Source: Natronolimnobius sp. AArcel1
GTDB taxonomy: Archaea; Halobacteriota; Halobacteria; Halobacteriales; Natrialbaceae
Length of the DNA stretch: 64,000 bases
Assembly (NCBI RefSeq): GCF_011043775.1
Contig: NZ_JAAKXY010000005.1
Span: forward strand, 310,001 to 374,000
Direction of reading: 5' to 3'
Under the pieces are notes generated by a model. It was not told the DNA's origin, searched no databases, and was given only the letters and a program-made list of their open reading frames with translations. Below, piece by piece: positions 28,965-60,366 of the stretch. Each line of letters opens with the position of its first letter. Positions within the stretch are counted from its first letter, which is position 1. A program made the position numbers and the translations under genes.

Positions 28965-28973
28965 CTAAAACGA

Positions 28974-31200: not shown

Positions 31201-31201
31201 C

Positions 31202-32302
31202 ATGACAGCAAGTGAATCTGCGAACTACGACAGCGATCACAGGCAGGATCAACAGCAGACGATTGACGGTGCAATCGAAACCCCCGATCCGATTGTCAAG
31301 GCCCGAAACCTGAGCGTTACCTTCGATATGTCACGGGGTATTTCGAGGGTGCTTGATAACGCGAATCTCGATATCCAACGAAACGAGATCCTCGGTATCG
31401 TCGGGGAGTCTGGGTCTGGAAAATCGATGTTTGCCTCGGCGATGCTCGATGCTGTCGTCGATCCGGGCGAACTCAGTGGGTCAATCGAATACCGACCGTC
31501 CGCAGACGAATCGGTGCACGTCCTCGAGACCAGCACACGCGAACTCAAGCAGCTGCGATGGTCCGAAATATCGATGGTGTTCCAAGGGGCGATGAGTTCG
31601 TTCAACCCAACGATGTCGGTTCGTGGGCATTTCGAGGAAACCCTCGACGCCCACAACGCCAATCACCAGGAGGGGATGGAACTCGCTCGAGAGATTCTTT
31701 CGGATCTCTACCTCGAGCCAGAACGCGTGCTCGATTCGTATCCCCATGAACTATCGGGTGGGATGCGACAGCGGACGCTTATTGCCCTGAGTCTTGTCCT
31801 CGAGCCACAGGTGTTGGTTATGGACGAGCCGACAGCGGCGCTCGACCTCTTGATGCAGCGTTCGATTCTCCAGTTGCTTACTGACATCAAAGAAAAGTAC
31901 GGCATCACGCTGATCTTCATCACGCACGATCTGCCACTGGTAGCGGAGTTAGCTGACCGGATTGCGGTGATGTATGCCTTCGAGTTCATCGAGGTCGCAC
32001 AGACTGACGAAATGTTAGCGCATGCGTCCCATCCGTATACGAGAGCGTTGCTCAATGCAACACCGAATATGCGAACGCCAATCGAGGAGATGCGGCCCGT
32101 TGAGGGATCCGCGCCGGACCCTGTCGACGTTCCGACCGGCTGTTCGTATCATCCACGGTGCTCGCTTGCAACAGATCAGTGTCGCGCATCTGACCCCGAG
32201 TATCACATCGTTGATTCCGACCACCACGCGAAGTGTTTCCACTGGGAGGATGCAGCCGACGAAATTCCGTTCTCGATCGCTGGAATGGAGGGTGATGATT
32301 GA
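31202..32302 (+). CDS. ABC transporter ATP-binding protein, DppD type
   Basis: The start is ATG 31202, directly after the DppC stop. The 366-residue ATPase has Walker A GESGSGKSMF, signature LSGGMRQR, Walker B VLVMDEP and the switch histidine in FITHD. The C-terminal oligopeptide-transporter domain carries the cysteine cluster (CSYHPRCSLATDQC) typical of DppD/OppD. The stop overlaps the next ATG by one base (TGATG), which indicates translational coupling. Confidence 0.95.
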   Translation: MTASESANYDSDHRQDQQQTIDGAIETPDPIVKARNLSVTFDMSRGISRVLDNANLDIQRNEILGIVGESGSGKSMFASAMLDAVVDPGELSGSIEYRPSADESVHVLETSTRELKQLRWSEISMVFQGAMSSFNPTMSVRGHFEETLDAHNANHQEGMELAREILSDLYLEPERVLDSYPHELSGGMRQRTLIALSLVLEPQVLVMDEPTAALDLLMQRSILQLLTDIKEKYGITLIFITHDLPLVAELADRIAVMYAFEFIEVAQTDEMLAHASHPYTRALLNATPNMRTPIEEMRPVEGSAPDPVDVPTGCSYHPRCSLATDQCRASDPEYHIVDSDHHAKCFHWEDAADEIPFSIAGMEGDD

Positions 32303-33732
32303 TGAGTAACCCACGTGGAGAATGCATCATCTCGCTCGAAGATGTCGAGGTGCACTTCGAGGACAGTTCGGACAGTGGCGGCTTCTTCGGTCTGTTCTCG
32401 GACCCAGATACGGTACACGCGGTCGACGGTATCTCGCTTGATATCCATGAAAACGAGATGATTGCGCTGGTCGGTGAGTCCGGATGTGGAAAAACGACGC
32501 TCGGAAAGACTTCGATCGGTCTCCAGCGGCCGACTGGCGGGTCCATTACGTACCGTGGGCAGGATATCTGGGAGGCCAAAGACGGGGAGGGCGAGATCGA
32601 CATTCCCTTCCGAGAGATCCGTAAGTCACTCCAGATCATCCATCAGGACCCCGGCAGCGCGCTTAATCCCAACCGGAAGGTGATGACAATTCTCGAGTCG
32701 CCACTGAAGAAGTGGGAAAAACACCTTTCGAAGGATGACCGAGCCGCTCGTATTCTTGGGCTGTTAGAGCGCGTTGGTATGTCGCCCCCAGATGACTACG
32801 CCTACCGTTACCCGCACCAGCTTTCGGGCGGCGAGAAACAACGCGTCGCGCTGATTCGCGCGCTGTTGATGAATCCGGATCTCATCCTTGCTGATGAGGC
32901 CATTTCCGCACTCGATGTCTCACTGCGTATCGAGATGATGGATCTGATGCACGAACTGCAGGATGCGTTCAATACGTCGTTCCTGTTCATCTCGCATGAC
33001 TTCTCGAACGCTCGCTATCTCTGTGAGAAAGTCGGCGGTCGGATCGGTGTAATGTACCTCGGCGAACTGGTCGAGATTGGCACCGCAGCGGAGATTACGC
33101 AAAACCCCCAACACCCCTACACCAAGTCGCTTGTGTGGGCAACACCGGACTTCGAGTCGATCAACCGGGAAGATAAGATGCCGATTCGAAAAATCGACAT
33201 TCCCGATCCAGTGAATCCACCGAGTGGCTGCCGGTTCCACACTCGTTGCCCCGAGGTCATCCAGCCTGAGGGGCTCGACCTCGATCAACAGCAGTGGGGG
33301 CGTGTCCTCAACCTCCGACAGGCGATTGAAGAAGACCGCGTTGAATTGGATCGCCTCCGCGAACAAGCAGCAGATGAGGATGTCCTCGAGGACGGAAGCG
33401 AGGACGAACTCGAGGTCCCCCTCGAGGACCTTGTCGCAGAGATTCGACTCGATTACGGACTCGAGGACCCACTCTCACAGGGCGATGCCGAATCGACGCT
33501 CGATGATGCGGTTCGAATGGTCGCGACGGGTAAGCGGGAGGAGCCGATTGAGACGTTGCGGAGTCTGTTTACAACGCCTTGTGAAGAGATAGAACCGCCG
33601 GCAGAGTCGGTTGGGACAGACCACACTGTCGCATGCTTGCTCCATCAGGATGAGTATGGAACTTCCGACGCTGTCTCGGACACTGATGGTGATTCTGACA
33701 CTGGCCACGAATCGGGGGCTGCTGACGACTGA
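32302..33732 (+). CDS. ABC transporter ATP-binding protein, DppF type
   Basis: The start is ATG 32302, coupled to the previous stop. The 476-residue ATPase has Walker A GESGCGKTTLGKT, signature LSGGEKQR and Walker B LILADEAIS, in which the usual DEP is DEA. It is longer than standard DppF because the C-terminal oligopeptide domain is interrupted. CRFHTRCPEVI is followed by about 120 acidic residues with charged helices before the second cysteine part (TTPCEEIEP and VACLLH). Haloarchaeal homologues may share this insert. Confidence 0.93.
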   Translation: MSNPRGECIISLEDVEVHFEDSSDSGGFFGLFSDPDTVHAVDGISLDIHENEMIALVGESGCGKTTLGKTSIGLQRPTGGSITYRGQDIWEAKDGEGEIDIPFREIRKSLQIIHQDPGSALNPNRKVMTILESPLKKWEKHLSKDDRAARILGLLERVGMSPPDDYAYRYPHQLSGGEKQRVALIRALLMNPDLILADEAISALDVSLRIEMMDLMHELQDAFNTSFLFISHDFSNARYLCEKVGGRIGVMYLGELVEIGTAAEITQNPQHPYTKSLVWATPDFESINREDKMPIRKIDIPDPVNPPSGCRFHTRCPEVIQPEGLDLDQQQWGRVLNLRQAIEEDRVELDRLREQAADEDVLEDGSEDELEVPLEDLVAEIRLDYGLEDPLSQGDAESTLDDAVRMVATGKREEPIETLRSLFTTPCEEIEPPAESVGTDHTVACLLHQDEYGTSDAVSDTDGDSDTGHESGAADD

Positions 33733-37432: not shown

Positions 37433-38275
37433 ATGCCAACCTTTGATGTCCGTATTCCGGAGGACCCTCTTCGGATCCTCGTACTCGGCGCACACATCGA
37501 CGACTGCGAGTTCACGATTGGCGGTACCGCCTACAAGTACGCCCAGCAAGGCCACGACGTGCGATTCGTCTCAATGACGAACGGCGAGGCCGGCCACCAC
37601 GAAATCGGTGGGATTGAACTGACCCGCCGCCGACAGTCCGAAGGGCGTGACTCGGCTGAAATCCTCGGCGTCGAGTACACGTTCCTTGACAATCATGAGG
37701 GCGAACTCCGGCCGACGATCGACAACCGCAACGAAGTAATCGAACTCATCCGCGAGTACGAACCCGACTTGGTTCTCACCCACCGACCGAACGACTACCA
37801 TCCGGATCACCGCTACACCTCCGATTTGGTCCAAGACGCCGCCTACATGGTCACAGTCCCGAACATCTGTACCAACACACCACACCTGACGTATAATCCG
37901 GTCATCTGCTACCTCCAGGACGACTTTCAGAAGCCGACACCGTTCGACCCAGACGTCGTTGTCGGCATTGACGACGCAGTTGAGACCAAACTCGACGCAC
38001 TCCACCAGCACGAATCCCAAATGTACGAGTGGCTGCCGTACAACGTCGGTAAACTCGAGGAGGTTCCCGAAGGTGATGACGCGCGACGAGAGTGGCTCGC
38101 CGAGGAGAACCTGCAGCGGTTTTCGAAAATCGCTGATCGGTTCCGTGACCAGTTAATCGACCGCTACGGCGAAGAGCGCGGCTCGGAGATTCAGTACGCC
38201 GAGGCATTCGAACACTGTGAGTACGGTGGACAGCTAACCGACGAAAACCGCGACGCACTGTTCCCGATCGAATGA
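37433..38275 (+). CDS. PIG-L (LmbE) family deacetylase
   Basis: This 280-residue metal-dependent deacetylase has the zinc motif LGAHIDDCEFTIGG (AHxDD) and the second histidine motif YHPDHRYTS. The family removes N-acetyl groups from GlcNAc-type sugars and related glycoconjugates. It lies 69 nt after the SelA-like enzyme gene in the same direction, so deacetylation before or after PLP chemistry is a reasonable reading. It has no signal peptide and so is cytoplasmic. A second PIG-L is at 61983. Confidence 0.9.
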   Translation: MPTFDVRIPEDPLRILVLGAHIDDCEFTIGGTAYKYAQQGHDVRFVSMTNGEAGHHEIGGIELTRRRQSEGRDSAEILGVEYTFLDNHEGELRPTIDNRNEVIELIREYEPDLVLTHRPNDYHPDHRYTSDLVQDAAYMVTVPNICTNTPHLTYNPVICYLQDDFQKPTPFDPDVVVGIDDAVETKLDALHQHESQMYEWLPYNVGKLEEVPEGDDARREWLAEENLQRFSKIADRFRDQLIDRYGEERGSEIQYAEAFEHCEYGGQLTDENRDALFPIE

Positions 38276-41354: not shown

Positions 41355-43067
41355 ATGATCGACTGCCACTTTCACATCTGGAGTCAAGATGTCTCGACGC
41401 CAGAAAAACGCGCCGAACGCGCTGAACAGTTCCGCCGCGAGGCCGACACGCTTGGTATCGAGCGAACCTGTCTCATTGGCGAGATCGGCGACACCGTCGA
41501 AGCGTGTCGAGAACACAACCGTACCGTCGCCAAATTCGTCACGGAACACCCCGATCTCTTCTACGGGTGGGCGCGAGTTCATCCCGCCCTCGGCGAGGAG
41601 GGGGTCGAAGAGTTCCGTCGTGCGGTCGAAGAAGATGGACTGGTCGGATTCAAACACCACTTCGTCGGCACGGAGATCAACATCACCGATCCGGAGTTCC
41701 AGCCGTTTGCGAAGGCGGCCGTCGAGATGGACGTCCCGATCATCTCTCACGTGATGCAAAACGAAGAGCCGTACCCAACTGAGCGCCCCAGTGAGGCGCG
41801 CTCCGAGGACGTGGTCGAACTCGCCGAGCAGTTTCCTGACCTACAACTTATTTCAGCGCACATCAGCGCCGGGGGCAACTGGGAACACCGCATTAGGAAC
41901 ATCGCTCCCTACGATAACGTCTACCTCGACTTGAGCGGCAGCAACTGCGAGGTCGGTCAGATCGAACTGGCCGCCGAACTTCTCGGTGTCGACCGACTCC
42001 TCTTTGGCACAGACACCTGGCTGTCCGTCTGTGCCGGCAAACTCGAGGCCGCGACCTTGCCGCCTGAGGATCGAGCCGAAATCGCGTACAACTTCGAGCA
42101 CCTGCTCCACGACGGCGTCGAGAACAAACTCACGGCCGACGAGCGTGAGGTCCGGATCGACCAGGCAACAGAGCGATTCGCTGATCTCGATATTCCCTAC
42201 GACGAACAGATCGTCGACGCGAACGCCTATGTCGGTGAGTGGCCGTTTTACCCCTTCGATGCCACCGTGGAGGACCTGCTCGAGCGAATGGACGACAACG
42301 GCGTCGATCAGGCTCTCGTCTCTTCACTCGAAGCGGTGTTCTACCGCAATCCACAGCACGGCAATCGCAAACTCGTCGACGACATCGAGGGCCACGAAGA
42401 CCGGCTACACCCATTCGCGACGATCGATCCGACGGTCCCTGGCTGGGAAGATGACTTCCGAACGTGCATTGAGGATCTCGAGATGCGCGGTGTACGGTTG
42501 CTTCCGGCCTACCACGACTACGATCTCAACGCGCCGGAAGCGCAGGCGCTGCTCGAGCGCTGCGCCGAATTCGACGTACCCGCGATGATCGTTCCTGCGC
42601 TTGAGGATCAGCGGGGCCGCCACTCGCGGGTCGAACTCAAATATTTTGAGGGGATGGGACAGGCCAAACACTGGCGCGATGATGCAGTCGACGACCTAAT
42701 CGAACTTCTGCTCGCGGTGCCCGAAACGGATGTGATCGTCGCCGGGGCTTGGAGCAGCGGCGCGCGCATAATTCGGGAAACGACGACCGTCGACCGGCAA
42801 GACGTCTGGCTCAACAACACCGTGCGGACGGGTGAGACACTGCTAGTGATCGACGACCTGTTCAATTACTGGACCCAGACGCAGGGAGAGGGCATCCTCG
42901 AGGAGATCGGTACCGAGCACCTCGTCATGGGGCCACAGCTTCCGATGAAATACTTCGAATCGTTCTACAACTACACGAAACACCTTCCGACAAGCGAGGC
43001 GCAGAAAGATCGCGTCCGTAGCGAGAACGTACTGGCGCTGCTTGGTGAGGGCGTAACTGACGACTGA
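41355..43067 (+). CDS. Double amidohydrolase (Amidohydro_2 type) with degenerate second half
   Basis: This 570-residue protein has two metal-dependent hydrolase barrels. The first (1-270) keeps the ligands: HFH at residues 4-6, KHHF, ISHVMQ, SAHIS and the aspartate in FGTDTW. The second (from about 275) begins IVDANAYVGEWPFYPF, where the HxH has become NAY, and the terminal aspartate region reads VMGPQLPM. The second half therefore probably lacks metal and may serve structure or binding. The family includes lactonases and decarboxylases. TATAA (41322) lies about 31 nt before the ATG. Confidence 0.85.
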   Translation: MIDCHFHIWSQDVSTPEKRAERAEQFRREADTLGIERTCLIGEIGDTVEACREHNRTVAKFVTEHPDLFYGWARVHPALGEEGVEEFRRAVEEDGLVGFKHHFVGTEINITDPEFQPFAKAAVEMDVPIISHVMQNEEPYPTERPSEARSEDVVELAEQFPDLQLISAHISAGGNWEHRIRNIAPYDNVYLDLSGSNCEVGQIELAAELLGVDRLLFGTDTWLSVCAGKLEAATLPPEDRAEIAYNFEHLLHDGVENKLTADEREVRIDQATERFADLDIPYDEQIVDANAYVGEWPFYPFDATVEDLLERMDDNGVDQALVSSLEAVFYRNPQHGNRKLVDDIEGHEDRLHPFATIDPTVPGWEDDFRTCIEDLEMRGVRLLPAYHDYDLNAPEAQALLERCAEFDVPAMIVPALEDQRGRHSRVELKYFEGMGQAKHWRDDAVDDLIELLLAVPETDVIVAGAWSSGARIIRETTTVDRQDVWLNNTVRTGETLLVIDDLFNYWTQTQGEGILEEIGTEHLVMGPQLPMKYFESFYNYTKHLPTSEAQKDRVRSENVLALLGEGVTDD

Positions 43068-43073: not shown

Positions 43074-44183
43074 CTATTTCTCGCCCTCAAGCGGCGTCCC
43101 TTCGATCGTCCCATCCGGCGAGACGTCCGAGACGCTCTCGAGGCCGCCGTAGGTCGTCGCAGTGAACTCGGCTTCGACAGTCTCGCCGGGTTCGAGTTCT
43201 TTCATCGTTCCGTTCTCGCGCTGGACATCGGGGTCGCCGGGGTAGGCCGTCGTCGGCTCGAGGCCGACGTTGTAGTTGCGGTTGAACCACGGGGACTCGT
43301 GGAACCCGCCGAACGGTTGCCAGTACCAGAGACTCTCGAACGGCTCGAGCGGGAACGTAAGCGCAAAGCCGAGATCGATATCCGGATTCGTGAGCGCGTA
43401 CCAGCCGTCTGCCATATCGACCGCGAACGATTGGTCGTGAATCGTCGAGTCCTCGGGCGGAATCTCTCGAAGATCGACTGTGGTGCCGTCCCGGCCGGGC
43501 GCGTGTGGCCACTCAAACTCGACGTCGCCCTCGAGGCGTGCGTTCGGGAACGCGTCGCCATACTTGGGGTTGACGCCGGTCGCGTCCGGTAGGTCGAGCC
43601 GCGCGGCCGATGAGAGTAGCGGCTGCCCCAGCGTGACGTGTTGCTGCCAGACGTACTCGAGGGGGCGTTCGCCCCGATTCGTCACGGATTCCTCGATCTC
43701 GAGGCGGGAGTCGCCGGCTGGCAGGGTCAGATCACGCTCGACGACGAACGGGTAGCGAGTGAGCTCGACCGTGAGACGCAGAGTCACTGCCTCGCCGTCG
43801 TCTCGGACGACTTCTGCATCCCAGGGGAGCAGGGCGCTTTCGCCGTGCTGACCGTAGGCGCTGCCGTCAAACTCCCAGCCGCCGCCAGCGACAGGGAGAT
43901 TAACCTGCCAGCCGCCGGGGTAGTGCTCGTTCCAACCCGTTTCAGCGGCCGTTGGGACGTACCGACTTTCGGGCGGCGTCCAGTTGTGTGGCGTCCGCCA
44001 GAGGACGTCAACATCGGTCCGTTTGTCACGGAACTCGACGATGTCGCCGCCTTTGCCGGGCAAGACGAGCACCCGTAGCGCTGAATTCTCGAGGATGACG
44101 GCGTCGATGCCGCGGTAGGTGAAATCGGTCGAGATGCGCGGCCCGGTTTGCCCGCGGAGGCCGGATTCGTCGCCGGGGATCAT
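43074..44183 (-). CDS. Aldose 1-epimerase-like (galactose mutarotase fold) protein
   Basis: The start is placed at MIPGDESGLRGQTG, which overlaps the upstream gene by 4 nt (stop 44180). The 369-residue protein has a galactose-mutarotase-like beta-sandwich: ENSALRVLVLPGKGGDIVEF resembles the start of DUF4432/aldose epimerases, with YVWQQHVTLGQPLL and WYWQPFGGFHESPWF later. The fold binds free sugars or sugar acids. The overlap indicates co-transcription with the ceramidase-fold gene. It is convergent with the double amidohydrolase, 6 nt apart. The substrate is unknown. Confidence 0.8.
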   Translation of the reverse strand: MIPGDESGLRGQTGPRISTDFTYRGIDAVILENSALRVLVLPGKGGDIVEFRDKRTDVDVLWRTPHNWTPPESRYVPTAAETGWNEHYPGGWQVNLPVAGGGWEFDGSAYGQHGESALLPWDAEVVRDDGEAVTLRLTVELTRYPFVVERDLTLPAGDSRLEIEESVTNRGERPLEYVWQQHVTLGQPLLSSAARLDLPDATGVNPKYGDAFPNARLEGDVEFEWPHAPGRDGTTVDLREIPPEDSTIHDQSFAVDMADGWYALTNPDIDLGFALTFPLEPFESLWYWQPFGGFHESPWFNRNYNVGLEPTTAYPGDPDVQRENGTMKELEPGETVEAEFTATTYGGLESVSDVSPDGTIEGTPLEGEK

Positions 44184-45460
44184 CGTCGCCCCTCCACGTT
44201 TCGGCGTCGCGCACCGACGCGTTCGGCGAGCGCAGTCGCGGTCGTCAGGATACGTTCGGGCGTCGAGGACGCGTAGCGGCCGTCTTCGAAGGACTGCCAG
44301 GCCTCGTAGCCCCCTTCGGCGAGGATTCGCTTGGTCGGCAGATAGCCCGTGTTGTTCGCGTAGCCAGCGACCCACAGCGGGGCAGCCAACTCGTCTTTCA
44401 GCGCGAGCGAGTAGTCGGCGACAACCTCGCCCGACAGCGAGACGAACGTCAGGTCCGTTCCGAAACCGATCGCCTGGAGCGGGTACGGCCGGCGATCAGT
44501 AACCTCCCCGCCGATCTCGTTTTGTGCGTCTTCCGGGGGCTCGAGAACGTCGAGTGCGACGGTATCAGCCGCGAGTTTCAGGGGACCACGAACCGGCTTC
44601 GGCTCAGTAACGAGTGCGCGTTCGACGGCCGTCACCGCGGTATCGGCGTGGCGGTGAACGAGTTCGCGACTCCCCTGTGGGTAGGCCTTCTGGTCGCCCG
44701 CACAGCCGATGACGAAAACGGCGGTGGCCTCGGGATAGCGCTCCTCTAACTCCTCCATGGCGTAGCCCGGCCAGTCGCCGTTGACCTCGTTGCTGTAGGC
44801 CATCCCGACCGTCGGGTGACAGGCGTAGCCGAACAGGATCGCCTTCGTCGTCCCGTCGGGCCGCTCGGCGGTCAACACGGGCAGATCGTGATCGACGGGA
44901 CCGTCCGGGTCAGGATCGAAGCCGATCCCGTCCTCGATCGGCCGTCGGCGGTTCATCGCGATGCCACACTTCGCGCGATAGTGGGACAGCGACGCGGGCT
45001 CGAGGTCTTCGAGCGCTTCCCCAATCACCGCCACCAGCTGCTCGTCGACGAACTCGCGGTAGGACTCGATCAGTTCCATGTCACGGTCGTAGTCCGGCTC
45101 GAGTCCCTCGGCATGGACGTCGTAATCCGGGCCGTAGTGGGTGTGACTCGGGACGATGAACAACGACTCGGGCTTGAGGTCCCATCGCTCGGCGCACTCG
45201 CGCTCGAGGAACTCCCGCTGCGTCTCGAACAGAAACAGGAGTTCGAACGAAAGAACGAGGAGTCGCTGTCCCGTGTGGTCCTCGAGGGCAATCGCTCGCG
45301 CTCGGATGTCGTTTTCGACGCCGTCCATCGGTCCGTCGCGGGCACCGAAGCCGATGAGATGGTGCGGGTCGTCCGCGTCGGGCGTGATCGGAACCGTCGC
45401 TGTCCCGATCTGCCACTCAGCGTGCCGGTCGGCTGTTGCAGGTGGATCTTGCTTGGCCAT
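44180..45460 (-). CDS. Neutral ceramidase-fold hydrolase
   Basis: This 426-residue paralogue of the protein at 23908 starts IGTATVPITPDADDPHHLIGFGARDG. It keeps the zinc-site PSHTHYGPDY and YACHPTVGMAYSNEVNGDWPGY. The loop that in ceramidases holds the nucleophile reads IGCAGDQKAYPQ rather than NGAAGDINPS, so the chemistry may differ from its paralogue. A TATA-like TTTATTAT (minus strand, 45487-45494) lies 30 nt from the ATG, giving its own leaderless promoter. It is translationally coupled to the mutarotase-like gene. Confidence 0.8.
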   Translation of the reverse strand: MAKQDPPATADRHAEWQIGTATVPITPDADDPHHLIGFGARDGPMDGVENDIRARAIALEDHTGQRLLVLSFELLFLFETQREFLERECAERWDLKPESLFIVPSHTHYGPDYDVHAEGLEPDYDRDMELIESYREFVDEQLVAVIGEALEDLEPASLSHYRAKCGIAMNRRRPIEDGIGFDPDPDGPVDHDLPVLTAERPDGTTKAILFGYACHPTVGMAYSNEVNGDWPGYAMEELEERYPEATAVFVIGCAGDQKAYPQGSRELVHRHADTAVTAVERALVTEPKPVRGPLKLAADTVALDVLEPPEDAQNEIGGEVTDRRPYPLQAIGFGTDLTFVSLSGEVVADYSLALKDELAAPLWVAGYANNTGYLPTKRILAEGGYEAWQSFEDGRYASSTPERILTTATALAERVGARRRNVEGRR

Positions 45461-45555
45461 ACTCGTCTATCCGTGGTCGAGCGTCGATAATAAAGGTACG
45501 CTCCGGATGCACACTCGGCGGCAGGTGGTGGTCTTCGGACCGAGTGGCGCTCAAA

Positions 45556-46422
45556 TCACTCTCTCGCTCCCGAACTGTACGGAAACAGTTCGTCGACGTC
45601 GGCCGCATCCAGTTCGACAAGGAACTCTGCGAGCCAGTCGGCCGCACCGTCGACCAGCGCCTCACCTTTCGCTGCCGAACTCTCGCGAGTCTCGCCACCG
45701 CCGACTTCGGGGTGATAGGCGTCCCAGCGCGGCACAAAGTATACTTGATCGCCCTCGAGTCCCTCAATCGTTGGCTCTCGAATTTCGAACTCGTCGAACT
45801 CGTCTTCCCGGACGAGATCTTCCCGTAGGTGCAACATCCGCGAGCTTTCGCTCTCGCCGCCGTGGACAGACGGATGCTCGAGTTCGTCCTCGATCTCATC
45901 GGGGATTGCGTCTGTCGTGCTCGTCAGGCAGACGAACGCCCCCTCGCCAGGAGGGTGGCGGTCAGCATGTTCTCGGAGGGCCGCCCGCAGCGCGGCCGGG
46001 TTCCCGCCGTGACCGTTGACGAAGAGGATCTTTCGGATGCCCTCCGCCTCGAGCGCTTCGATCATGTCGAGTGCGATATCCATGAGCGTGCGGACACCGA
46101 TGCGACAGGCGAAGGGGAACGCTTTGAAGTTCACGTTGTTCCCGATCGGCAGCGTCGGGTACTTGAGGACGCGTGCACCCTTCTCGTTGGCGCGCTCGAC
46201 GGCGCGGCGGCAGACGGCTTTGGTCTGGAAGACGTCGGTCCCGTAGGGCAGATGCGGGCCGTGGGGCTCCGTCGAGCCGAATCCGACGACCACGACCTCT
46301 GGTTCGAGGCGCTCGACGTCTTCGACGGTCATCTCCTCGATGATGCCGGAGGGGTGATCGCCCCTCGTTTCATCTAGTTTCGCGTCCCCGTCCGCGTCTT
46401 CCGTCTGATTTCGATCCGACAT
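45556..46422 (-). CDS. Creatininase-family amidohydrolase
   Basis: This 288-residue protein carries the creatininase metal site: GSTEPHGPHLPYGTD with glutamate and histidine ligands, ILFVNGHGGNPAALRAA, and a later HGGESESS. The family opens cyclic amides or cleaves amide bonds (creatinine, mycofactocin and FAPy-type substrates). An N-terminal acidic tail of about 25 residues precedes the domain. It starts 9 nt after the class III aminotransferase stop, so they are one operon. The true substrate is unknown; a lactam or amide of the aminotransferase product is possible. Confidence 0.88.
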   Translation of the reverse strand: MSDRNQTEDADGDAKLDETRGDHPSGIIEEMTVEDVERLEPEVVVVGFGSTEPHGPHLPYGTDVFQTKAVCRRAVERANEKGARVLKYPTLPIGNNVNFKAFPFACRIGVRTLMDIALDMIEALEAEGIRKILFVNGHGGNPAALRAALREHADRHPPGEGAFVCLTSTTDAIPDEIEDELEHPSVHGGESESSRMLHLREDLVREDEFDEFEIREPTIEGLEGDQVYFVPRWDAYHPEVGGGETRESSAAKGEALVDGAADWLAEFLVELDAADVDELFPYSSGARE

Positions 46423-46431
46423 CGCGACAAC

Positions 46432-47793
46432 TCAGTCGTCCCCGGTTCGCTCTCGCAGCGTTGCGCCGACCAGATCCCCCTCGAGATAGCTGCCGACGTC
46501 GCCGTTCTCGAGCGCCTCGGCGACGGTCTCGAGCGCTCCGCGGTAGCCCGCTAACGTTGCCTCGACGTCAGATTCGCTATGGCTGTAGGTCGGGATGTGA
46601 CTGCCCGTGTAGAGGACGCCGTTTTTGTGGGCTTCCTGCATGAACAGACTCCGCAGGAGGCGGTCAATGTCGGTGTCGTCGGTCGGCGCTGCGGTCGCGA
46701 TCTCGTCTGCGAATCCGATCGAAAATCGCGGCGGGTAGCCCGTCGCCTCGGTGACGTCCTCGAGGCCGAGGTCGGCGGCCAGTTCGTTGTAGCCGTCTCG
46801 AAGCTGTTCGCCGATATCGAAGATGTGCTCGTGGACCGGCTCTTCCTGCAGTACCGAGAGGGTGGCGTCGGCGGCCGCCAGCGGCACGGCGTCGCCCGCG
46901 TAGGTCATCGAGTAGAAGAAATCGTTGTGGTCGATGACTTCCATGAACTCGCGTTTCCCGGCCAGCGCTGCAATCGAGTAGCCGTTTGCCATCGCCTTTG
47001 CGAAACAGGTCAGATCCGGCGTCACGTCGAAGTATTCCTGTGCGCCACCGGGTGCAAACCGGAAGCCGGTCAGCACCTCGTCGAACACCAGCAGAGCGTC
47101 CTCGCGGTCGGCGAGTTCACGCACCTCCTCAAGGAAGTCGTCCTCTGGTGGCTCGAGATTGACTGGCGTCGTGACGATTGCAGCCACGTCATCAGGGTTG
47201 TCCTCGAAGATCTGTTCAACACTCTCGATATCGTTGTACTCGAAGGATGCGGTGTACTCGCTGACGGGATCGGGGATGCCGGCGCTCATGCTGTCGTTGT
47301 TGCTCATCCAAATATCCGGCCAGCCGTGATAGCCCTGGGTCGCGACGACGTCACGGCCAGTGTAGGCGCGGGCGAGCTTCGCTGCGAGCGTGGTGACGTC
47401 GTTGCCACTCTTGGCGAACTTCACCATCTCGGCGCAGGGGACCATATCGACGATTTTCTCGGCGACGTCCAAATGCAGCGGATGCTCCATCGTGTACATC
47501 GTCCCATCCTCGAGTTGCTCTGTTACAGCGTCGGTGACAGCGGGATAGTTGTGGCCCAGCAGGATTGGCCCCAGTGCAGCGTTACAATCGACGTACTCGT
47601 TGCCGTCGACATCCCACAGTCGGCTCCCCTCAGCTCGCTCGATGTGCGTGGGTGAGACACCTTGGACGAACTGCGTCGGGCTTTTGCTGCCAGTATGAGA
47701 GGCGCCCGGAACGAGCCGGCGCGCTCGCTCCGCGAGATCTCTCGATCGCTGTACGGATCGCTCGCTCGAGATTGTCTGCTGACCGTCGGACAT
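46432..47793 (-). CDS. Class III aminotransferase, glutamate-1-semialdehyde aminomutase-like
   Basis: The start is at MSDGQQTISSERSVQRSR, with TATA GCTTATCA (minus strand, 47818-47825) 28 nt upstream. The 453-residue PLP enzyme has the LVPGASHTGSK start of the GSA aminomutase group, VFDEVLTGFR, and PLP lysine K266 in CFAKAMANGYSIAALAG. It is probably not HemL, because it lies in a catabolic operon with creatininase- and ceramidase-fold genes, and such relatives act on amino sugars, taurine-like or other amines. It is the first gene of the minus-strand set 43.1-47.8 kb. Confidence 0.88.
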   Translation of the reverse strand: MSDGQQTISSERSVQRSRDLAERARRLVPGASHTGSKSPTQFVQGVSPTHIERAEGSRLWDVDGNEYVDCNAALGPILLGHNYPAVTDAVTEQLEDGTMYTMEHPLHLDVAEKIVDMVPCAEMVKFAKSGNDVTTLAAKLARAYTGRDVVATQGYHGWPDIWMSNNDSMSAGIPDPVSEYTASFEYNDIESVEQIFEDNPDDVAAIVTTPVNLEPPEDDFLEEVRELADREDALLVFDEVLTGFRFAPGGAQEYFDVTPDLTCFAKAMANGYSIAALAGKREFMEVIDHNDFFYSMTYAGDAVPLAAADATLSVLQEEPVHEHIFDIGEQLRDGYNELAADLGLEDVTEATGYPPRFSIGFADEIATAAPTDDTDIDRLLRSLFMQEAHKNGVLYTGSHIPTYSHSESDVEATLAGYRGALETVAEALENGDVGSYLEGDLVGATLRERTGDD

Positions 47794-47954: not shown

Positions 47955-48974
47955 ATGCGAGCGATTGTCACGAATGGCGAGGGCGACAGTTGGGAGGAGA
48001 CACGAGACCGACCGGAACCCAGTGAGGGTGAGGTGCTGGTGAAAATACGCGCGGTTGGAATCTGCGGGAGCGACATCGGGTTGATCGACGGTGGTGGGCC
48101 ACCCTGGAAGGACCTGCCCGTCGTTCCAGGCCACGAAGTCTGTGCAGAGGTGGTCAAACTCGGCGCAGGCGTCGACTCGCCGTCAGTCGGAGACCGCGTC
48201 GCACTTCACCAGTTCATCTACTGTGGCACCTGTTCCGCGTGTCGCGAGGGCCGCTACTACCAGTGTGATGAGATCCAGGAAATCGGCTTCTCGCTGGATG
48301 GGGGCTACCGCGAGTACGCCGCTGTCCCCGCGTACACGCTAACACCAATCCCCGACTCGGTGTCGGATCTCGAGGCCTGCCAAATCGACTCGGCGGCCTG
48401 TACGCTCCACGCGATGGATCGGATCGACATCTCGGTGTCCGACACCGCCGCGGTGCTCGGTCCCGGTGCGCTCGGACTCTTCGGAGTGCAACTCCTCCGG
48501 GCAAAGGGCGTCGACGACGTGATTCTCACAGGCACCCGGCCGGAGCGCCTCGAGGCGGGCCGGGAACTCGGAGCGAACAAGACGATCAACGTCCGCGAGA
48601 CCGACCCTATCGAGGCGATCATGGAGTACACGGATGGAGCGGGCGTTGAGGTCTGCGTCGAGGCCGCAGGTGCCGGCGATGTTGTGAACACGAGTCTGAA
48701 GGTCGCGGCGAATCAGGGCCAAGTCGCGCTGACTGGCGTCTTCGATGCGAGCCGAGAGATCGATCCAGACGATATCGTGCTCAAGGAACTGACCGTCGTC
48801 GGCGGCGTTACGGCTGCCCACGCGGTCGAAGACGTGATCGAACTCTTCGAGCGCGGCGATCTCACCGTCGACGGCATCGTCACCCACGAGTTCCCACTCG
48901 CAGAGTACGAAGAGGCCCTCGAGACGGTCCGTAACCGACGCGACGGTGTCGTAAAGGCAGTTCTTCGCCCCTAA
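47955..48974 (+). CDS. Zinc-binding MDR dehydrogenase (sorbitol/threonine dehydrogenase-like)
   Basis: This 339-residue enzyme has catalytic zinc ligands in AVGICGSDIG and PGHEVCAEV, and a complete structural-zinc lobe, CGTCSACREGRYYQC. The Rossmann segment reads AAVLGPGALGLFGVQLLRAKG. It resembles polyol, threonine or galactonate dehydrogenases and should oxidise a secondary alcohol with NAD(P). TATA-like ATTAATA (about 47913) lies upstream. It is divergent from the aminotransferase operon and followed 59 nt later by a sulfatase gene. Confidence 0.92.
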   Translation: MRAIVTNGEGDSWEETRDRPEPSEGEVLVKIRAVGICGSDIGLIDGGGPPWKDLPVVPGHEVCAEVVKLGAGVDSPSVGDRVALHQFIYCGTCSACREGRYYQCDEIQEIGFSLDGGYREYAAVPAYTLTPIPDSVSDLEACQIDSAACTLHAMDRIDISVSDTAAVLGPGALGLFGVQLLRAKGVDDVILTGTRPERLEAGRELGANKTINVRETDPIEAIMEYTDGAGVEVCVEAAGAGDVVNTSLKVAANQGQVALTGVFDASREIDPDDIVLKELTVVGGVTAAHAVEDVIELFERGDLTVDGIVTHEFPLAEYEEALETVRNRRDGVVKAVLRP

Positions 48975-49033
48975 ACTACGCTGTCGGTTCAGCGAGCGCC
49001 ACTGTTATGTGATCTCATCTCAACGTGGACAGT

Positions 49034-50503
49034 ATGCCGACCCGACCGAACATCCTGCTTGTGATGACTGACCAGCACCGTGGCGACTGCATTGGTGCTG
49101 ACCCGAACGTTCCGAAAGACGCTGACGGCCGACCGCTGATCCACACACCGAACATCGACAGCTTCGTTGAGGACGGCGCGCTGTTCTCTCGTGCGTACAC
49201 GCCCTCGCCGTCGTGTATTCCGGCCCGCCGAAGCCTGTTGACCGGCCAGACGCCCTCGACCAACGGCGCGCCCGGCTGGGTGACGACTCCCTGGGAGTTC
49301 GATCGGACACTCCCCAGCGAACTCCGCGATGCGGGGTATCAGACTAAACTCACCGGCAAGATCCACTCCATCCCGCCACGGAGCAACGTCGGCTTCGAGA
49401 GCATGGACCAACACGAGGCGCTGTTCGCCCACGAAAACGATGACTACACGCGCTGGCTCGAGAGCGAGACTGGCGGCGCAGACGAACTCGCACATGGTCT
49501 CGGGCGCAACTCGTGGGACCCCCGCCCGTGGCATCTGGATGAATATCACCACCCGACGAACTGGACGACCCGAAAGGCGCTCGAGTTTCTCGACCAGCGC
49601 GACGAGACGCGCCCGTTCTTCCTGAACCTCTCCTACGTCCGGCCGCACACGCCGTTCGATCCGCCCCAGCCCTACTGGGATATGTACGTCGATCGCGACA
49701 TGCCCGACCCATACATGGGCGATTGGGCCGACGACGTCTACGGCGAGAAGATCCCCGACTATCCCGCAATCGACGCGTGGGTTGCCGATCTTTCGCCGAC
49801 GGTTATCCACCGCGCCCGCGCAGCCTACTATGGACTCATCACTCAGATCGACCACCAACTCAAGCGCGTGTTCGACAAGCTGATGATGATGGGCGAACTC
49901 GAGAACACGTTCGTTCTGTTCATCTCCGACCACGGCGAGATGCTCGGCGATCACTATCTCTGGCGCAAGTCCTACGGCTACGAGGGCTCGTCTCGCATCC
50001 CCATGCTGATGCAGTTCCCCGAGTCGATGGAGCTGCCCCGCAAACAGATCATCGACCAGCCCGTCGGCCTCGAGGACGTCATGCCGACGCTGCTGTCGAT
50101 CGCCGGCGAATCGGTGCCGGACTTCGTCGAGGGGCGCAACCTGCTGGATCTCGTCCACGACCCCGACCGGGAGGACTGGCGCGAGTGGTACCATGGCGAG
50201 CACAGTCCCGGCAGCTACGATCCGGAGAACGCCACCCAGTACGTAATCAGCGATCAGATGAAGTACATCTGGAACCAGGTCACCGGCGAGGAACTCCTGT
50301 TCGACCTCGAGGAAGATCCCGGCGAGGAGACAGATCTGACCGACGATGGCGAGTACGCCGACGACCTCGAGCGAGGGCGGGACGCGATGGTTGATCGCCT
50401 CACCGGCCGACCGGAAGGATTCGTCGAAGACGGTGATCTGTCGACGATAGAGCCGGGCGATGAGGACGTTGGCGATCCGGACGACTGTAGTTCGGACAGC
50501 TGA
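49034..50503 (+). CDS. Sulfatase (S1 family)
   Basis: The start is taken at ATG 49034 (an in-frame GTG at 49025 is possible). The 489-residue sulfatase has NILLVMTDQHRGDCIG with the metal-binding aspartate, the formylglycine motif CIPARRSLLTGQ with cysteine 61, and LFISDHGEMLGDH. The domain is full length with an acidic C-terminal tail. No signal peptide is present, so it works in the cytoplasm on an imported sulfate ester. It differs clearly from the sulfatase at 8524 and belongs to the choline-sulfatase/arylsulfatase-like side of the family. Confidence 0.93.
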   Translation: MPTRPNILLVMTDQHRGDCIGADPNVPKDADGRPLIHTPNIDSFVEDGALFSRAYTPSPSCIPARRSLLTGQTPSTNGAPGWVTTPWEFDRTLPSELRDAGYQTKLTGKIHSIPPRSNVGFESMDQHEALFAHENDDYTRWLESETGGADELAHGLGRNSWDPRPWHLDEYHHPTNWTTRKALEFLDQRDETRPFFLNLSYVRPHTPFDPPQPYWDMYVDRDMPDPYMGDWADDVYGEKIPDYPAIDAWVADLSPTVIHRARAAYYGLITQIDHQLKRVFDKLMMMGELENTFVLFISDHGEMLGDHYLWRKSYGYEGSSRIPMLMQFPESMELPRKQIIDQPVGLEDVMPTLLSIAGESVPDFVEGRNLLDLVHDPDREDWREWYHGEHSPGSYDPENATQYVISDQMKYIWNQVTGEELLFDLEEDPGEETDLTDDGEYADDLERGRDAMVDRLTGRPEGFVEDGDLSTIEPGDEDVGDPDDCSSDS

Positions 50504-50556
50504 GCCGGGACCGCCGCGAGCACAAACTCTTTATCCCATCGCGAGTGCTCTTATCC

Positions 50557-51324
50557 ATGGTACTAACAGCCATACAGCTGTTTACGCTCAGCGATGTTGA
50601 GGAGTCAGTCCCGGACAGTATCGACCGCGTCGGCGACACGTCGTTTGACGGCGTCGAGTTTTACGACGCACAGCTGGATGCCCTCGCAGACGACGAAACG
50701 CTTCGACGAACCCGCGACGCGTTGGCGGCCACTGACCTCGAGGTCGCCGCGTCCCACATCGGCGTCGAGCGCCTTGAGTCCTCACTCGAGGACGTGGTCA
50801 GTGTCTGCACCGAGATTGGGTGTTCGACGCTCGTCATTCCAACGTACGACACCGACGCATTCGAGACACGCGAGGGAATAATCGACGCTGCCGACCGAAT
50901 CGCTGGGCTGGCTGCAGAGCTCGAAGCGCACGGTATCGACTTGCTGTATCACAACCACACCTTCGAGTTCGATGAGGTTGACGGCGATACCGCGTTTGAG
51001 ATATTTGTCGAGGCGTCCAACGGTCGGTTTGGCTTCCAGCCCGATGTTGGGCTCGCAACCCACGCCGACTACGACGCGCTGGCCCTGTTGGATCTCGTCG
51101 CTGACCGATCGCCGATCGTGCATCTCACCGATTCGGTGCCAGACGACGATGCAGCGTTGCACGCCGATGTCGGGGAGGGAGTCGTCGACGTCGAAGCCTG
51201 CGCTGACGCCGCCACAGCAATCGGTGCTGAGTGGATCGTCTGCGAGAACGGTGTGACTGACGACCCAATCGCGGCGCTCGAGCATGGCAGCGAGGCGTTT
51301 GAGTCGCTGGCAAATCGGGACTAA
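50557..51324 (+). CDS. Sugar phosphate isomerase/epimerase (AP endonuclease 2 TIM barrel)
   Basis: The start is at MVLTAIQLFTLSDVEES; CTTTATCC (50529-50536) lies about 25 nt upstream, so the mRNA is probably leaderless. This 255-residue xylose-isomerase-like TIM barrel has DGVEFYDAQLD, LLYHNHTFEFDE (metal-binding His and Glu region), FQPDVGLATHA and IVCENGV. Relatives isomerise or dehydrate keto-inositols and keto sugars and often partner Gfo/Idh dehydrogenases, of which three lie downstream. The substrate is unknown. Confidence 0.88.
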   Translation: MVLTAIQLFTLSDVEESVPDSIDRVGDTSFDGVEFYDAQLDALADDETLRRTRDALAATDLEVAASHIGVERLESSLEDVVSVCTEIGCSTLVIPTYDTDAFETREGIIDAADRIAGLAAELEAHGIDLLYHNHTFEFDEVDGDTAFEIFVEASNGRFGFQPDVGLATHADYDALALLDLVADRSPIVHLTDSVPDDDAALHADVGEGVVDVEACADAATAIGAEWIVCENGVTDDPIAALEHGSEAFESLANRD

Positions 51325-51406: not shown

Positions 51407-52495
51407 ATGTCGAACAGAGTATCAGTTCACAATCCAAATGCCTGTTACAACGGGTATACGTTGTTTGCCGAATCGTACGAGCATCCCGAAAAAAGCCCGG
51501 ATGGAACCGGAACGGTCTACCTCATCGATATGGAGGGGCAGCCAGTCCACCGCTGGGAGGTAGAGACGGCACTTCAGTCGCACTGTCGGCTGTTGCCGAA
51601 CGGTAATTTGCTGTATCCGACTCGCGACCGATCGGATATCGAACAGGCTGGGTTACGGGAACTTGACCCTGATGGCGAAGTCGTCTGGTCGTTCCACTGT
51701 CGGATCGATCACGATTACCAGGTCCTCGAGGGTGATCACATGCTGTTACACACGATCAGAGATTCGATGACACCCACGATTGGCCCTGAACTCAAACGCA
51801 ATCCCTACATCGTCGAGATCGACCGCAAGAAAAACCTCCATTGGGAGTGGGACGGCGCGGACCACTACGACGACCTCCGCGAGCATCTTCCTGACGATGA
51901 GTGGGAGTACGTCGCCCACCGTATCGAGAGCGAGTATCCCTTCGACTGGGCTCACAACAACACGCTCGAGGTCATCCCCGAGAACGAGACGGCCAAAATC
52001 GAGCGCGAACGCGGCGGCCCGGTCCGGTTCGAACCTGGCAATATCGTCTTCTCTTACCGCTCGATCGACGTTATCGGTGTCATCGACTATCCCAGCGGCG
52101 AGATCGTCTGGGCGTGGGGGCCGGACGAACTCGACGGCCAACACCTTCCGCACGTCCTCGAGAATGGGAACCTGTTGATCTTCGATAATGGGGCCGAGCG
52201 CGGCTACTCGCGGGTGATCGAACTTGATCCACTCACTGAGGAAATCGTCTGGGAGTACACTGGTTCACCGAAATCGTCGTTCTACAGCCCGTTCATCTCC
52301 GGTGCTCGTCGCCTTCCTAACGGCAACACGCTAATCTGTGAAGGAAGTGAGCGCCGACTATTCGAAGTGACATCGGACGGCGAGATCGTCTGGGATTTCG
52401 TCAGTCCGTTCGCCGAAACGGGCTCGCTCGGAACCGTCTACCGCTGCCAACGCTACTCGCCGGAGTACGTCGAACCACTGCTCGAGTCGATCTGA
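51407..52495 (+). CDS. Arylsulfotransferase (ASST)-like beta-propeller protein
   Basis: This 362-residue protein has repeated beta-propeller blades with the pattern RLLPNGNLLYPT, DPDGEVVWSF, LPHVLENGNLLIFDNG and RRLPNGNTLICEG, and with DWAHNNTLEVIPEN in the middle. This matches the arylsulfotransferase (ASST) and related propeller family. ASST moves sulfate between phenols, but this copy lacks a signal peptide and may be a propeller of other function. It stands next to a sulfatase and isomerase, which supports a link to sulfated substrates; that link is inference. Confidence 0.72.
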   Translation: MSNRVSVHNPNACYNGYTLFAESYEHPEKSPDGTGTVYLIDMEGQPVHRWEVETALQSHCRLLPNGNLLYPTRDRSDIEQAGLRELDPDGEVVWSFHCRIDHDYQVLEGDHMLLHTIRDSMTPTIGPELKRNPYIVEIDRKKNLHWEWDGADHYDDLREHLPDDEWEYVAHRIESEYPFDWAHNNTLEVIPENETAKIERERGGPVRFEPGNIVFSYRSIDVIGVIDYPSGEIVWAWGPDELDGQHLPHVLENGNLLIFDNGAERGYSRVIELDPLTEEIVWEYTGSPKSSFYSPFISGARRLPNGNTLICEGSERRLFEVTSDGEIVWDFVSPFAETGSLGTVYRCQRYSPEYVEPLLESI

Positions 52496-52536: not shown

Positions 52537-53772
52537 TTAGTCCAGTAGCGTCTCCGTATTAGCCTGGATTTTTCGGATCGCGTCCGCAACTGACCGAATT
52601 CCGTCTTCCTCGGCCAGCAATACCTCGTGAGGGTAAGTGATGTTCGTCTCACACAGTTCCTCGACGCCTGGCAGATGGCGAGTCGGATAGTTCGGTAGAT
52701 CGACGTCGTCTGGAACCAATCGACCAACCTCTTCGCGGTAAAAGGCCGGCTGGCGGTACAGCGGCATTTCGTACCCTTCTCCGACCGGGACGCCTTCCGC
52801 CTGTAGCGCCTCGATGAACGTCTCCCGTGGAAGGCCGTCGAACGCCGCCGAATCGTACCGGAAATTCTCAATACAGTACCCACGGGCAGTGATCCGCTCG
52901 TCACGAGGTTTCGTCTGAATTCCCTCGATGTCCGCGAGTTCAGCGAGCAGAATCTCCTCGTTTCGTTCACGGGTTTGGTTCTCCGCTTCGAGCGTCTCGA
53001 GTTGGCCCAGTGCGAGGGCGGCCTGGAGTTCTGAGAGTCGCGCGTTCGTCGAGAGTCGGTAGTGGTAATATCCTGTTGCACCCTGCCGACGGCCGATGTT
53101 GTGCATGAGGCGTGCGCGGTCGGCAAGCACGTCGTCATCGGTGACGATGATCCCGCCCTCGCCGCTCGAGAGCGATTTCGTCTCCTGGAAGGAGAACGTC
53201 CCGAAGTCACCGAACGTGCCCACCTTCTCGCCGCACCACTCCGAGCCCTGTGCGTGAGCGGCGTCCTCGATGAGGAACAGATCGTGTTCCTCAATGATCG
53301 GCAGCAGTCGGTCCATATCCATCGGATAGCCTGCAAAGTGGACGCCAAGGATTCCGACGGTCCGATCAGTAATGCGTTCCTCAAGATGCTCGAGGTCGAT
53401 GTTATACGTTTCAACATTCGTATCAACGAAGCGAGGCACTGCGCCGACAGTGGGAATCGCGCTTGCGCTCGCGATGAACGAATACGACGGGACAATCACC
53501 TCATCACCCGGCTGGACACCGCAGGCGCGCAGTGCCAGTTCAATCGCGACAGTTCCGTTCGAGACCGCAATGGCGTGTTCTGCGTCGTGGTAGTCGGCGA
53601 ACGCCGCCTCGAGACGGTCACAGGCGTCAGCGCCGTCGCTGTTGCGACACCAGTTGCCGCTCTCGAGGACAGCCTCGACGTACTGCCTGCTCGAGTCGTT
53701 TAGTTGTGGCCACTCCGGAACCTCGAGTGTTGCAGCGGCTTTCGGACCGCCAGTAATGGCTAGCTCACCCAT
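52537..53772 (-). CDS. DegT/DnrJ/EryC1/StrS-family aminotransferase
   Basis: The start is at MGELAITGGPKAAATLEVPE; the frame is open far upstream to 54666, but that part is antisense to a Gfo/Idh gene. The 411-residue enzyme has FLIEDAAHAQGSEW (PLP-ring aspartate), FSFQETKSLSSGEGG with PLP lysine K199, and the family start after the substrate loop. Members aminate keto sugars or scyllo-inosose, or act as dehydratases on sugars. It is divergent from the Gfo/Idh gene at 53908, which could supply its keto substrate as in inosose pathways; this is inference. Confidence 0.92.
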   Translation of the reverse strand: MGELAITGGPKAAATLEVPEWPQLNDSSRQYVEAVLESGNWCRNSDGADACDRLEAAFADYHDAEHAIAVSNGTVAIELALRACGVQPGDEVIVPSYSFIASASAIPTVGAVPRFVDTNVETYNIDLEHLEERITDRTVGILGVHFAGYPMDMDRLLPIIEEHDLFLIEDAAHAQGSEWCGEKVGTFGDFGTFSFQETKSLSSGEGGIIVTDDDVLADRARLMHNIGRRQGATGYYHYRLSTNARLSELQAALALGQLETLEAENQTRERNEEILLAELADIEGIQTKPRDERITARGYCIENFRYDSAAFDGLPRETFIEALQAEGVPVGEGYEMPLYRQPAFYREEVGRLVPDDVDLPNYPTRHLPGVEELCETNITYPHEVLLAEEDGIRSVADAIRKIQANTETLLD

Positions 53773-53907
53773 AGTCGTCGGTATGCGATTGTGTACCATC
53801 CAGTAAATAGATGACGGTGTCGTTGGATACAGAGCCCACTGGTGCGAACCAGTCGATCCCGAAACGGACCCCAGTTTTATGCGTCGTCCGCACGTCAGGA
53901 GTATCAG

Positions 53908-59148: not shown

Positions 59149-60366
59149 ATGTTATCCATCACTGCAGCCCAGATTCGGTCCGTCTATGACCGGTTCGACG
59201 ACGAATCGATCGTCCAGCACACCCCTGTCGAGACGAGTCGTTCACTCAGTCGGTTAGTCGACGGTGACGTCATCCTCAAGATGGAACACCTCCAGCGAAC
59301 TGGCTCGTTCAAGACCAGAGGAGCGTACAACAAGATGCTCTCGCTCGAGGGGGGATCCGACATTGATCGGGTCGTCGCTGCAAGCGCAGGCAACCACGCC
59401 CAGGGGGTCGCCCTCGCAGCAAACTCACGCGGGGTTCCCTCAACCATCGTGATGCCCGCTACTGCACCCCAGTCGAAAGTTGAAGCGACCGACGAGTACG
59501 GTGCCGATGTCGTCCTCCACGGCACGACGTTCCGTGATGCGATGGCCCACGCCCGTTCGCTCACCGACGAGGGTGTCGAGTTCGTCCACGCCTTCGACGA
59601 CCCGGCGATCATCGCCGGTCAGGGAACACTCGGGCTGGAACTCCTCGAGGACGTGCCCGATGTCGATACCGTGGTTGTGCCGATCGGTGGCGGTGGTCTC
59701 ATCGCAGGCGTTGGCGCTGCGCTGGCCGACCATCGGCCTGATATCCGGGTCATTGGCGTTCAGGCTGATTCGGCCGCGACCGTCCCGGAGAGTCTCCAGA
59801 AGGGCATGCCCGAATCACTCGAGGATGTCGATACGATCGCCGATGGGATCGCAACCGGGGAAGTCTCCGACCTCACACTCGAGTTGATCGACGAACACGT
59901 CGACGAGATCGTCACCGTTACCGAAGAGGAGATTGCACGTGGCATCTTGCTCTTGCTCGAGCGGGCCAAACAGCTCGTTGAAGGGGCGGGCGCGGCTTCG
60001 GTGGCAGCTATTCTCAGCGATGAGGTAGACGTAAGCGGAGAAACCGTCGTTCCCGTTCTGACCGGCGGAAATCTCGATATGACGATGCTCCGGGCGATTC
60101 TCACACACGAACTCACCTCGCGAAGCCAGATGATCCGGCTACAGGTACGGATTGACGATCAACCAGGCGAGATGCACACCCTCTCGGGGCTGATCGCAGA
60201 CAAGGGAGCAAATATTCGGACGGTCAACCACTATCGCGCCGACGAGACCCTCGACGTTGGAGAGGCGTACCTCGTCTTCCTCGTCGAGACCAGTGGTGAG
60301 GAACACGCAGAGCGGATCACAGATGCGATCGAGGCGACAGGCTATGCGGTCGAACGGATCAACTGA
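59149..60366 (+). CDS. Threonine ammonia-lyase (threonine dehydratase) with ACT domain
   Basis: This 405-residue fold-type II PLP enzyme has PLP lysine K55 in RTGSFKTRGAYNK, SAGNHAQGVALAAN, and the phosphate-binding IGGGGLIAG. A C-terminal ACT-like domain (from about residue 325: LQVRIDDQPGEMHTLSGLIA) suggests allosteric control. The length matches the catabolic/TdcB-like class with ACT. It converts threonine or serine to a 2-oxo acid and ammonia through an enamine, which RidA, encoded about 1.1 kb downstream, is known to help hydrolyse. Confidence 0.92.
   Translation: MLSITAAQIRSVYDRFDDESIVQHTPVETSRSLSRLVDGDVILKMEHLQRTGSFKTRGAYNKMLSLEGGSDIDRVVAASAGNHAQGVALAANSRGVPSTIVMPATAPQSKVEATDEYGADVVLHGTTFRDAMAHARSLTDEGVEFVHAFDDPAIIAGQGTLGLELLEDVPDVDTVVVPIGGGGLIAGVGAALADHRPDIRVIGVQADSAATVPESLQKGMPESLEDVDTIADGIATGEVSDLTLELIDEHVDEIVTVTEEEIARGILLLLERAKQLVEGAGAASVAAILSDEVDVSGETVVPVLTGGNLDMTMLRAILTHELTSRSQMIRLQVRIDDQPGEMHTLSGLIADKGANIRTVNHYRADETLDVGEAYLVFLVETSGEEHAERITDAIEATGYAVERIN

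Follow-up and report, generated by a model that had tools for sequence, protein, structure and literature searches.

The stretch analyzed here, 64,000 nucleotides (nt) of a contig of the haloarchaeon Natronolimnobius sp. AArcel1 (NZ_JAAKXY010000005.1, positions 310,001 to 374,000; hereafter the window), contains four minus-strand genes at positions 43074-47793, for which a sequence-only reading had proposed a single pathway acting on an N-acylated or lactam-type amino sugar. The four open reading frames, their strands and their junctions of 9, 95 and -4 nt proved to be exactly as that reading had described, i.e.:

47793..46432, minus strand: GSAT, a class III aminotransferase of the glutamate-1-semialdehyde-aminomutase-like group, with an ATG start, followed after 9 nt by CREAT
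46422..45556, minus strand: CREAT, a creatininase-family metallohydrolase between GSAT and CER, followed after 95 nt by CER
45460..44180, minus strand: CER, a predicted zinc hydrolase of the neutral-ceramidase fold, 426 amino acids (aa), sharing a 4-nt ATGA overlap with DUF4432
44183..43074, minus strand: DUF4432, a mutarotase-like protein of the aldose-1-epimerase fold, joined to CER by the stop/start overlap

Co-occurrence was assessed in 100 relatives and in 392 genomes of the order, using orthologue cut-offs of at least 50% identity for CER and at least 72% for DUF4432. CER orthologues were present in 9 of the 392 genomes and DUF4432 orthologues in 8, with all carriers of either falling within the 15 genomes that bear this GSAT clade (hypergeometric probabilities of 9e-15 and 5e-13, respectively; 3e-8 and 5e-7 when collapsed to genera). 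GSAT, CER and DUF4432 were contiguous in G025, G326, G312 (Natronosalvus hydrolyticus, its coordinates matching those of L126), G033 (Natronosalvus amylolyticus), G006 and G002 (Natrononativus amylolyticus). In Halosolutus gelatinilyticus (G043) and Halovivax sp. KZCA124 (G046), CER and DUF4432 adjoined one another and GSAT was more distant; CER and DUF4432 also adjoined in Halomontanus rarus, and CER and GSAT did so in Haladaptatus DYF46 and G208. By both co-occurrence and contiguity, the aminotransferase, the ceramidase-fold protein and the mutarotase-like protein form a conserved association far beyond chance, whereas the full quartet does not. Taken singly, all of these families are common, with creatininases and class III aminotransferases found in most haloarchaea, and one might therefore suppose that the four are chance neighbors with unrelated functions. 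Given the co-occurrence and contiguity of the orthologues despite gene shuffling, this explanation is already refuted for GSAT, CER and DUF4432, though not for CREAT, and we regard it as very improbable.

CREAT itself is a member of the creatininase family (Pfam Creatininase, PF02633, 2.3e-54, 184.8 bits), aligns to PDB entry 3lub and carries the metal-site motifs TEPHG (51-55), GTD (61-63), NGHGGN (136-141) and GGESESS (188-194), but it scored below the NCBIfam equivalog cut-offs of MftE (85 versus 172 bits), creatininase (64 versus 235) and IolN (42 versus 245). That the quartet, CREAT included, constitutes one dedicated pathway appears distinctly unlikely. In its favor, only 9 nt separate GSAT from CREAT, and CREAT was present in just 3 of the 392 genomes, two of which carry GSAT (p ~0.004). 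Moreover, the island most closely related, that of G043, contains a decayed orthologue (L032; G043:C2:153179-153562, between TIM-barrel and flavin-reductase genes) with its two ends joined and its middle gone (81% identity over 118 nt and 73% over 128 nt to the G072 copy), and another creatininase subfamily, with 67% identity among its own members and ~30% to CREAT, occurs in three further islands, those of G046, Halomontanus and Haloprofundus. However, the decay in G043 also counts against such a pathway, and CREAT was never found with the other three genes in any relative: in six relatives GSAT stands beside CER with a gap of 105-483 nt and no CREAT in the slot. The neighborhood expected of the four families was thus borne out for GSAT, CER and DUF4432 and failed for CREAT. 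Its only orthologues (68-69%) came from two draft genomes of a single genus, G072 and G086; in G072 the gene is on a contig other than that of GSAT, beside Gfo/Idh/MocA, DapA-like and flavin adenine dinucleotide (FAD) oxidoreductase genes, and in G086 it has no island neighbors. The enrichment of creatininases in islands was modest (~3 independent cases versus 0.49 expected, p ~0.013). We therefore read CREAT as a putative lineage-specific, optional accessory module that has been gained and lost. The idea that it is random junk was dropped once a decayed orthologue had turned up in G043 and another subfamily in three islands.

The quartet as a single unit also fell on the promoter evidence, for CER-DUF4432 has a conserved promoter of its own. 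Two conserved elements were located, one upstream of CER and one upstream of GSAT:

45488..45494, minus strand: TATA box TTTATTA, 34 nt ahead of the CER start codon
47820..47831, minus strand: CGAAGCGCTTAT, an element resembling a B recognition element (BRE)/TATA box, 38 nt ahead of the GSAT start codon

By phylogenetic footprinting, TTTATTA or TTTAATA was present at -31 to -34 from the CER start in 7/7 orthologues, confirming the new TATA box that had been suggested ahead of CER. Likewise, the element CGAAGnnCTTAT was found at -38/-39 from the GSAT start in seven of eight orthologues, the eighth having TTTAATA at -30. The CER/DUF4432 overlap is also seen in annotated relatives (4 nt in L262 and L264). 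Since CER and GSAT each have a conserved upstream element, and since CER and DUF4432 overlap, the stable units are GSAT alone and CER-DUF4432, the latter a coupled unit with its own promoter beside a separate transcription unit for GSAT. A perfect palindrome-like sequence, CTCTGACCAGAG, at 47865-47876, where GSAT and ADH47 diverge, was considered as an island operator and rejected, being absent from other islands and having near matches no commoner than chance. A sigma-70 promoter scan was set aside as inapplicable to archaea.

All four predicted folds were supported, by Pfam matches and, for CER and DUF4432, by structure. GSAT matched Pfam Aminotran_3 (4.7e-53) and contains both the class III aminotransferase domain and a pyridoxal phosphate (PLP) lysine, K266, that is invariant among homologues. 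It resembles HemL, the glutamate-1-semialdehyde aminomutase, in fold, PLP lysine and 36-40% identity, but differs in scoring below the cut-offs of both the HemL model TIGR00713 (259 versus 527 bits) and its best NCBIfam match, PRK06209 (389 versus 486 bits). Its clade, furthermore, is found in few genomes, mostly with the island, whereas nearly all haloarchaea have a separate copy that is just 33-43% identical.

CER scored below the curated threshold of Pfam Ceramidase_alk (PF04734; 1.3e-6, 27.8 versus 32.1 bits). Nevertheless, a profile built from 24 CER homologues retrieved the Pseudomonas and human neutral ceramidases at 6e-28 and 1e-24 (2zws, 5.9e-28), and the AlphaFold model (predicted local distance difference test, pLDDT, 79) matched the same structures by Foldseek at 1.7e-21. 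Positions H106, H108, H215, E345 and Y373 correspond to the zinc site and were invariant in 24/24 homologues. CER therefore has the His/His/His/Glu/Tyr positions conserved in the neutral ceramidases (PDB 2zws, 4wgk; PF04734) as well as their catalytic fold. It differs from them in being only 15-17% identical over the structural match, in measuring 426 aa rather than ~650-690 aa, in lacking the C-terminal domain, and in lying beside sugar genes, not lipid genes. No signal peptide was recognizable in CER, the N-terminus of which is not hydrophobic, and a literature search on ceramidase-like amidases returned nothing pertinent. CER-type ceramidase-fold proteins are numerous in Planctomycetes and Verrucomicrobia. 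The neighborhoods of 72 bacterial ceramidase-fold loci had almost nothing in common with the island, the exception being a DegT gene at five of them, and these loci consequently did not reveal the substrate. In Planctomycete-type CER homologues (L134, L137, L143, L156, L166), a DegT aminotransferase gene was adjoining or nearby. A second CER clade (45-49% identical; L128, L129, L139 and related loci) occurs in other haloarchaea with a Gfo/Idh/MocA pair and TIM-barrel genes; these loci have neither GSAT nor DUF4432 and represent a sister system.

The DUF4432 protein matched Pfam PF14486 (7.2e-26, 91 bits versus a cut-off of 32.5), and its model (pLDDT 80) adopts the galactose-mutarotase fold (Foldseek 3.6e-17 to 3mwx). 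H113, H182 and E309 were invariant in 13 homologues, and we take them to be the His/His/Glu set of mutarotases, by alignment and comparison with GalM. The protein had been called a sugar-binding protein; given the fold and the three invariant residues, likely mutarotase-type enzyme is the better name. A literature search for DUF4432 yielded nothing pertinent. Two further DUF4432 paralogues are encoded on the same contig (G000:C5:201438-202490, 60% identical, with an IclR gene before it and a Gfo gene after it; G000:C5:34018-35010, 41%).

The four genes make up a small part of an island of 45 kb, extending from ~18 to 64 kb of the window, which the sequence-only reading had overlooked together with its sulfatase content. 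Clustering of the predicted proteins of ten islands yielded ~25 co-travelling families that are common to 5-10 of the ten, with varying order and orientation. Before ~18 kb of the window, no family in common with the other islands was found. Because the families are common to islands in differing order, they appear to have been kept by function and not by inherited order. Several of the island carriers are records deposited as plasmids. GSAT was present in all ten islands, CER in nine and DUF4432 in eight by clustering, with DUF4432 also detected in G043 by tblastn. The other principal features of the window are as follows, with the number of the ten islands that carry the family where counted:

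18149..18943, plus strand: IclR regulator at the left edge of the island (7)
23908..25254, plus strand: second ceramidase-fold paralogue, PF04734 51.5 bits, passing the curated score (7)
26795..33732, plus strand: Opp/Dpp-type ATP-binding cassette (ABC) importer, comprising a binding protein, two permeases and two ATPases
37433..38275, plus strand: PIG-L family deacetylase
39105-40529: right-handed beta-helix protein with a twin-arginine-type N-terminus (8, in 11 copies)
41355..43067, plus strand: double amidohydrolase-2 protein, convergent on DUF4432 (9)
47955..48974, plus strand: ADH47, zinc alcohol dehydrogenase, best NCBIfam match IolM at 206 bits, below the cut-off of 450
49025..50503, plus strand: sulfatase, PRK13759 arylsulfatase at 518 bits, above the cut-off of 481, with a Cys-type CIPAR motif at residue 64 (7)
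50545..51324, plus strand: xylose-isomerase-like TIM-barrel protein (9)
51407..52495, plus strand: arylsulfotransferase-like propeller protein, no obvious signal peptide (8)
52537..53781, minus strand: DegT-family sugar aminotransferase (9)
59149..60366, plus strand: threonine ammonia-lyase, TIGR01127 at 461 bits, above the cut-off of 379 (5)
61716..62681, plus strand: second PIG-L family deacetylase

A DgaE-like lyase, of the glucosaminate ammonia-lyase family, was common to six islands, and RidA, a luciferase-like monooxygenase and an FAH hydrolase were each found in four or five. Zinc dehydrogenases, IolG-like dehydrogenases, PIG-L proteins, an AAC(3)-like acetyltransferase and the Opp-type importer were further shared families. 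Three distinct sulfatase families, all with the Cys-type CxPxR motif, travel in the islands (that at 49025-50503 of the window, and those of G002, G043 and others). The double amidohydrolase does converge on DUF4432, as had been noted, with 6 nt between the two genes, and it is a recurrent neighbor, flanking DUF4432 in at least six islands. Its N-terminal domain retains HxH/H/H/D-type motifs, while the C-terminal copy has DANAY in place of HxH and MGPQ in place of GTD; as the second domain has lost its metal-binding motifs, only the first half looks catalytic. Sequence searches of the PDB with the double amidohydrolase, the arylsulfotransferase-like protein and the beta-helix protein returned nothing informative.

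We read the four genes as belonging to a large mobile catabolic island of haloarchaea, and consider the odds roughly even that this island serves to take up and break down an amino sugar that is sulfated and N-acylated, or a glycoside thereof. In such a route, the sulfatases would strip sulfate from the substrate, and CER, as a zinc amidase, together with the PIG-L enzymes would strip the N-acyl groups. DUF4432 would interconvert anomers to supply the right one for the next enzyme, and the IolG-like and zinc dehydrogenases would oxidize the ring. Removal of the amine, yielding a keto acid or ammonia, would fall to GSAT, DegT, the DgaE-like lyase, threonine ammonia-lyase and RidA. Sugar isomerases and the FAH-type hydrolase would feed central metabolism, and the IclR protein would regulate the set; we infer these assignments enzyme by enzyme. 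A catabolic role is preferred to a biosynthetic one because no glycosyltransferases or nucleotidyltransferases belong to the shared set, which does include an importer, a catabolic-type regulator, several Cys-type sulfatases, RidA, a DgaE-like lyase and a threonine ammonia-lyase that passes its cut-off. As substrate, an amino sugar bearing sulfate and N-acyl groups is favored because CE14 (PIG-L), DgaE-like, IclR and RutC proteins are also the combination predicted for degradation of N-acetylglucosamine (GlcNAc) in Natrarchaeobius (PMC12343721). The amino sugar proposed at the outset is plausible, given the DgaE-like lyase, threonine ammonia-lyase, two PIG-L enzymes and DegT of the surrounding island and the RidA of related islands; for its lactam-type variant no evidence was found. 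Several points weigh against this substrate assignment. No clear glycoside hydrolase was recognized among the conserved families, although the beta-helix protein could be the missing polymer-cleaving enzyme; almost all matches are at family level and fall short of the NCBIfam equivalog cut-offs; GSAT and DegT can act in biosynthesis too; and the sulfatases and amine-handling enzymes might serve different compounds.

The Thermotoga-type myo-inositol pathway consists of IolG, IolM, IolN and IolO. As the island dehydrogenases resemble IolG and IolM, breakdown of a cyclitol or aminocyclitol by a similar route is a serious rival, albeit an improbable one: an IolN-like creatininase-fold enzyme would open the ring, a TIM-barrel protein would act as epimerase, and GSAT and DegT would take the ring amines. 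IolG-like, IolM-like, creatininase-fold and TIM-barrel proteins do lie side by side here as in Thermotoga; IolG is the best NCBIfam match of Gfo55, Gfo19 and Gfo22 (189, 127 and 84 bits) and IolM that of ADH47, two creatininase subfamilies with IolN matches of 42 and 73 bits recur in islands, and an AAC(3)-like acetyltransferase belongs to the set. All of these scores, however, fall far under the equivalog cut-offs (IolG 189 versus 355, IolM 206 versus 450, IolN 42 versus 245 bits), and IolN is just the third-best model for CREAT, behind MftE and creatininase. Moreover, most islands have no creatininase, this component is optional, the island adds amine and sulfate enzymes, and a mutarotase-like protein would have no role on a carbocycle. 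We likewise consider it unlikely that the island builds or remodels a sulfated, amino-sugar-containing surface glycan. DegT, GSAT-like aminotransferases, acetyltransferases and arylsulfotransferase-like proteins are frequent in glycan biosynthesis, but glycosyltransferases, nucleotidyltransferases and flippases are all absent from the conserved families, and the importer, IclR, several sulfatases, threonine ammonia-lyase, RidA and DgaE-like lyase that these do include point to breakdown.

Two known haloarchaeal systems are comparable with the catabolic island favored here. Chitin/GlcNAc utilization clusters have been predicted in Natrarchaeobius, with a CE14 (PIG-L), DgaE-like, IclR and RutC set for GlcNAc (PMC12343721). 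CE14/PIG-L, D-glucosaminate ammonia-lyase-like, IclR and RutC/RidA proteins also occur in the islands, as does an ABC importer. The Natrarchaeobius clusters, however, have chitinases and GH3/GH20 enzymes, whereas the island has sulfatases, CER, DUF4432, GSAT, DegT, the double amidohydrolase and IolG-like dehydrogenases; no chitinase was recognized among the island proteins scanned. Haloarchaeal glycosaminoglycan (GAG) polysaccharide utilization loci are likewise plasmid-borne islands with a sulfatase and an ABC importer, but their defining enzymes, a GAG lyase, GH88 and GH154, were not recognized in the island (PMC13260240).

A literature search for the four families together found no paper. 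We tentatively propose a pathway not described in the literature found, in which haloarchaeal megaplasmids would encode use of a sulfated N-acylated amino sugar, with CER as zinc amidase and DUF4432 as mutarotase acting on the sugar amide and the HemL-like aminotransferase removing the amine. The literature on DUF4432 is almost nil, and no assigned role in the catabolism of sugars was found for either DUF4432 or this ceramidase-fold type; if correct, the proposal would give both families their first such role. The conserved, promoter-defined CER-DUF4432 pair on a plasmid-borne island offers a testable handle on both families, and on the recycling of sulfated nitrogen-containing sugars by hypersaline communities. 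As the gene set is kept while its order shuffles, co-travel is itself useful evidence of function.

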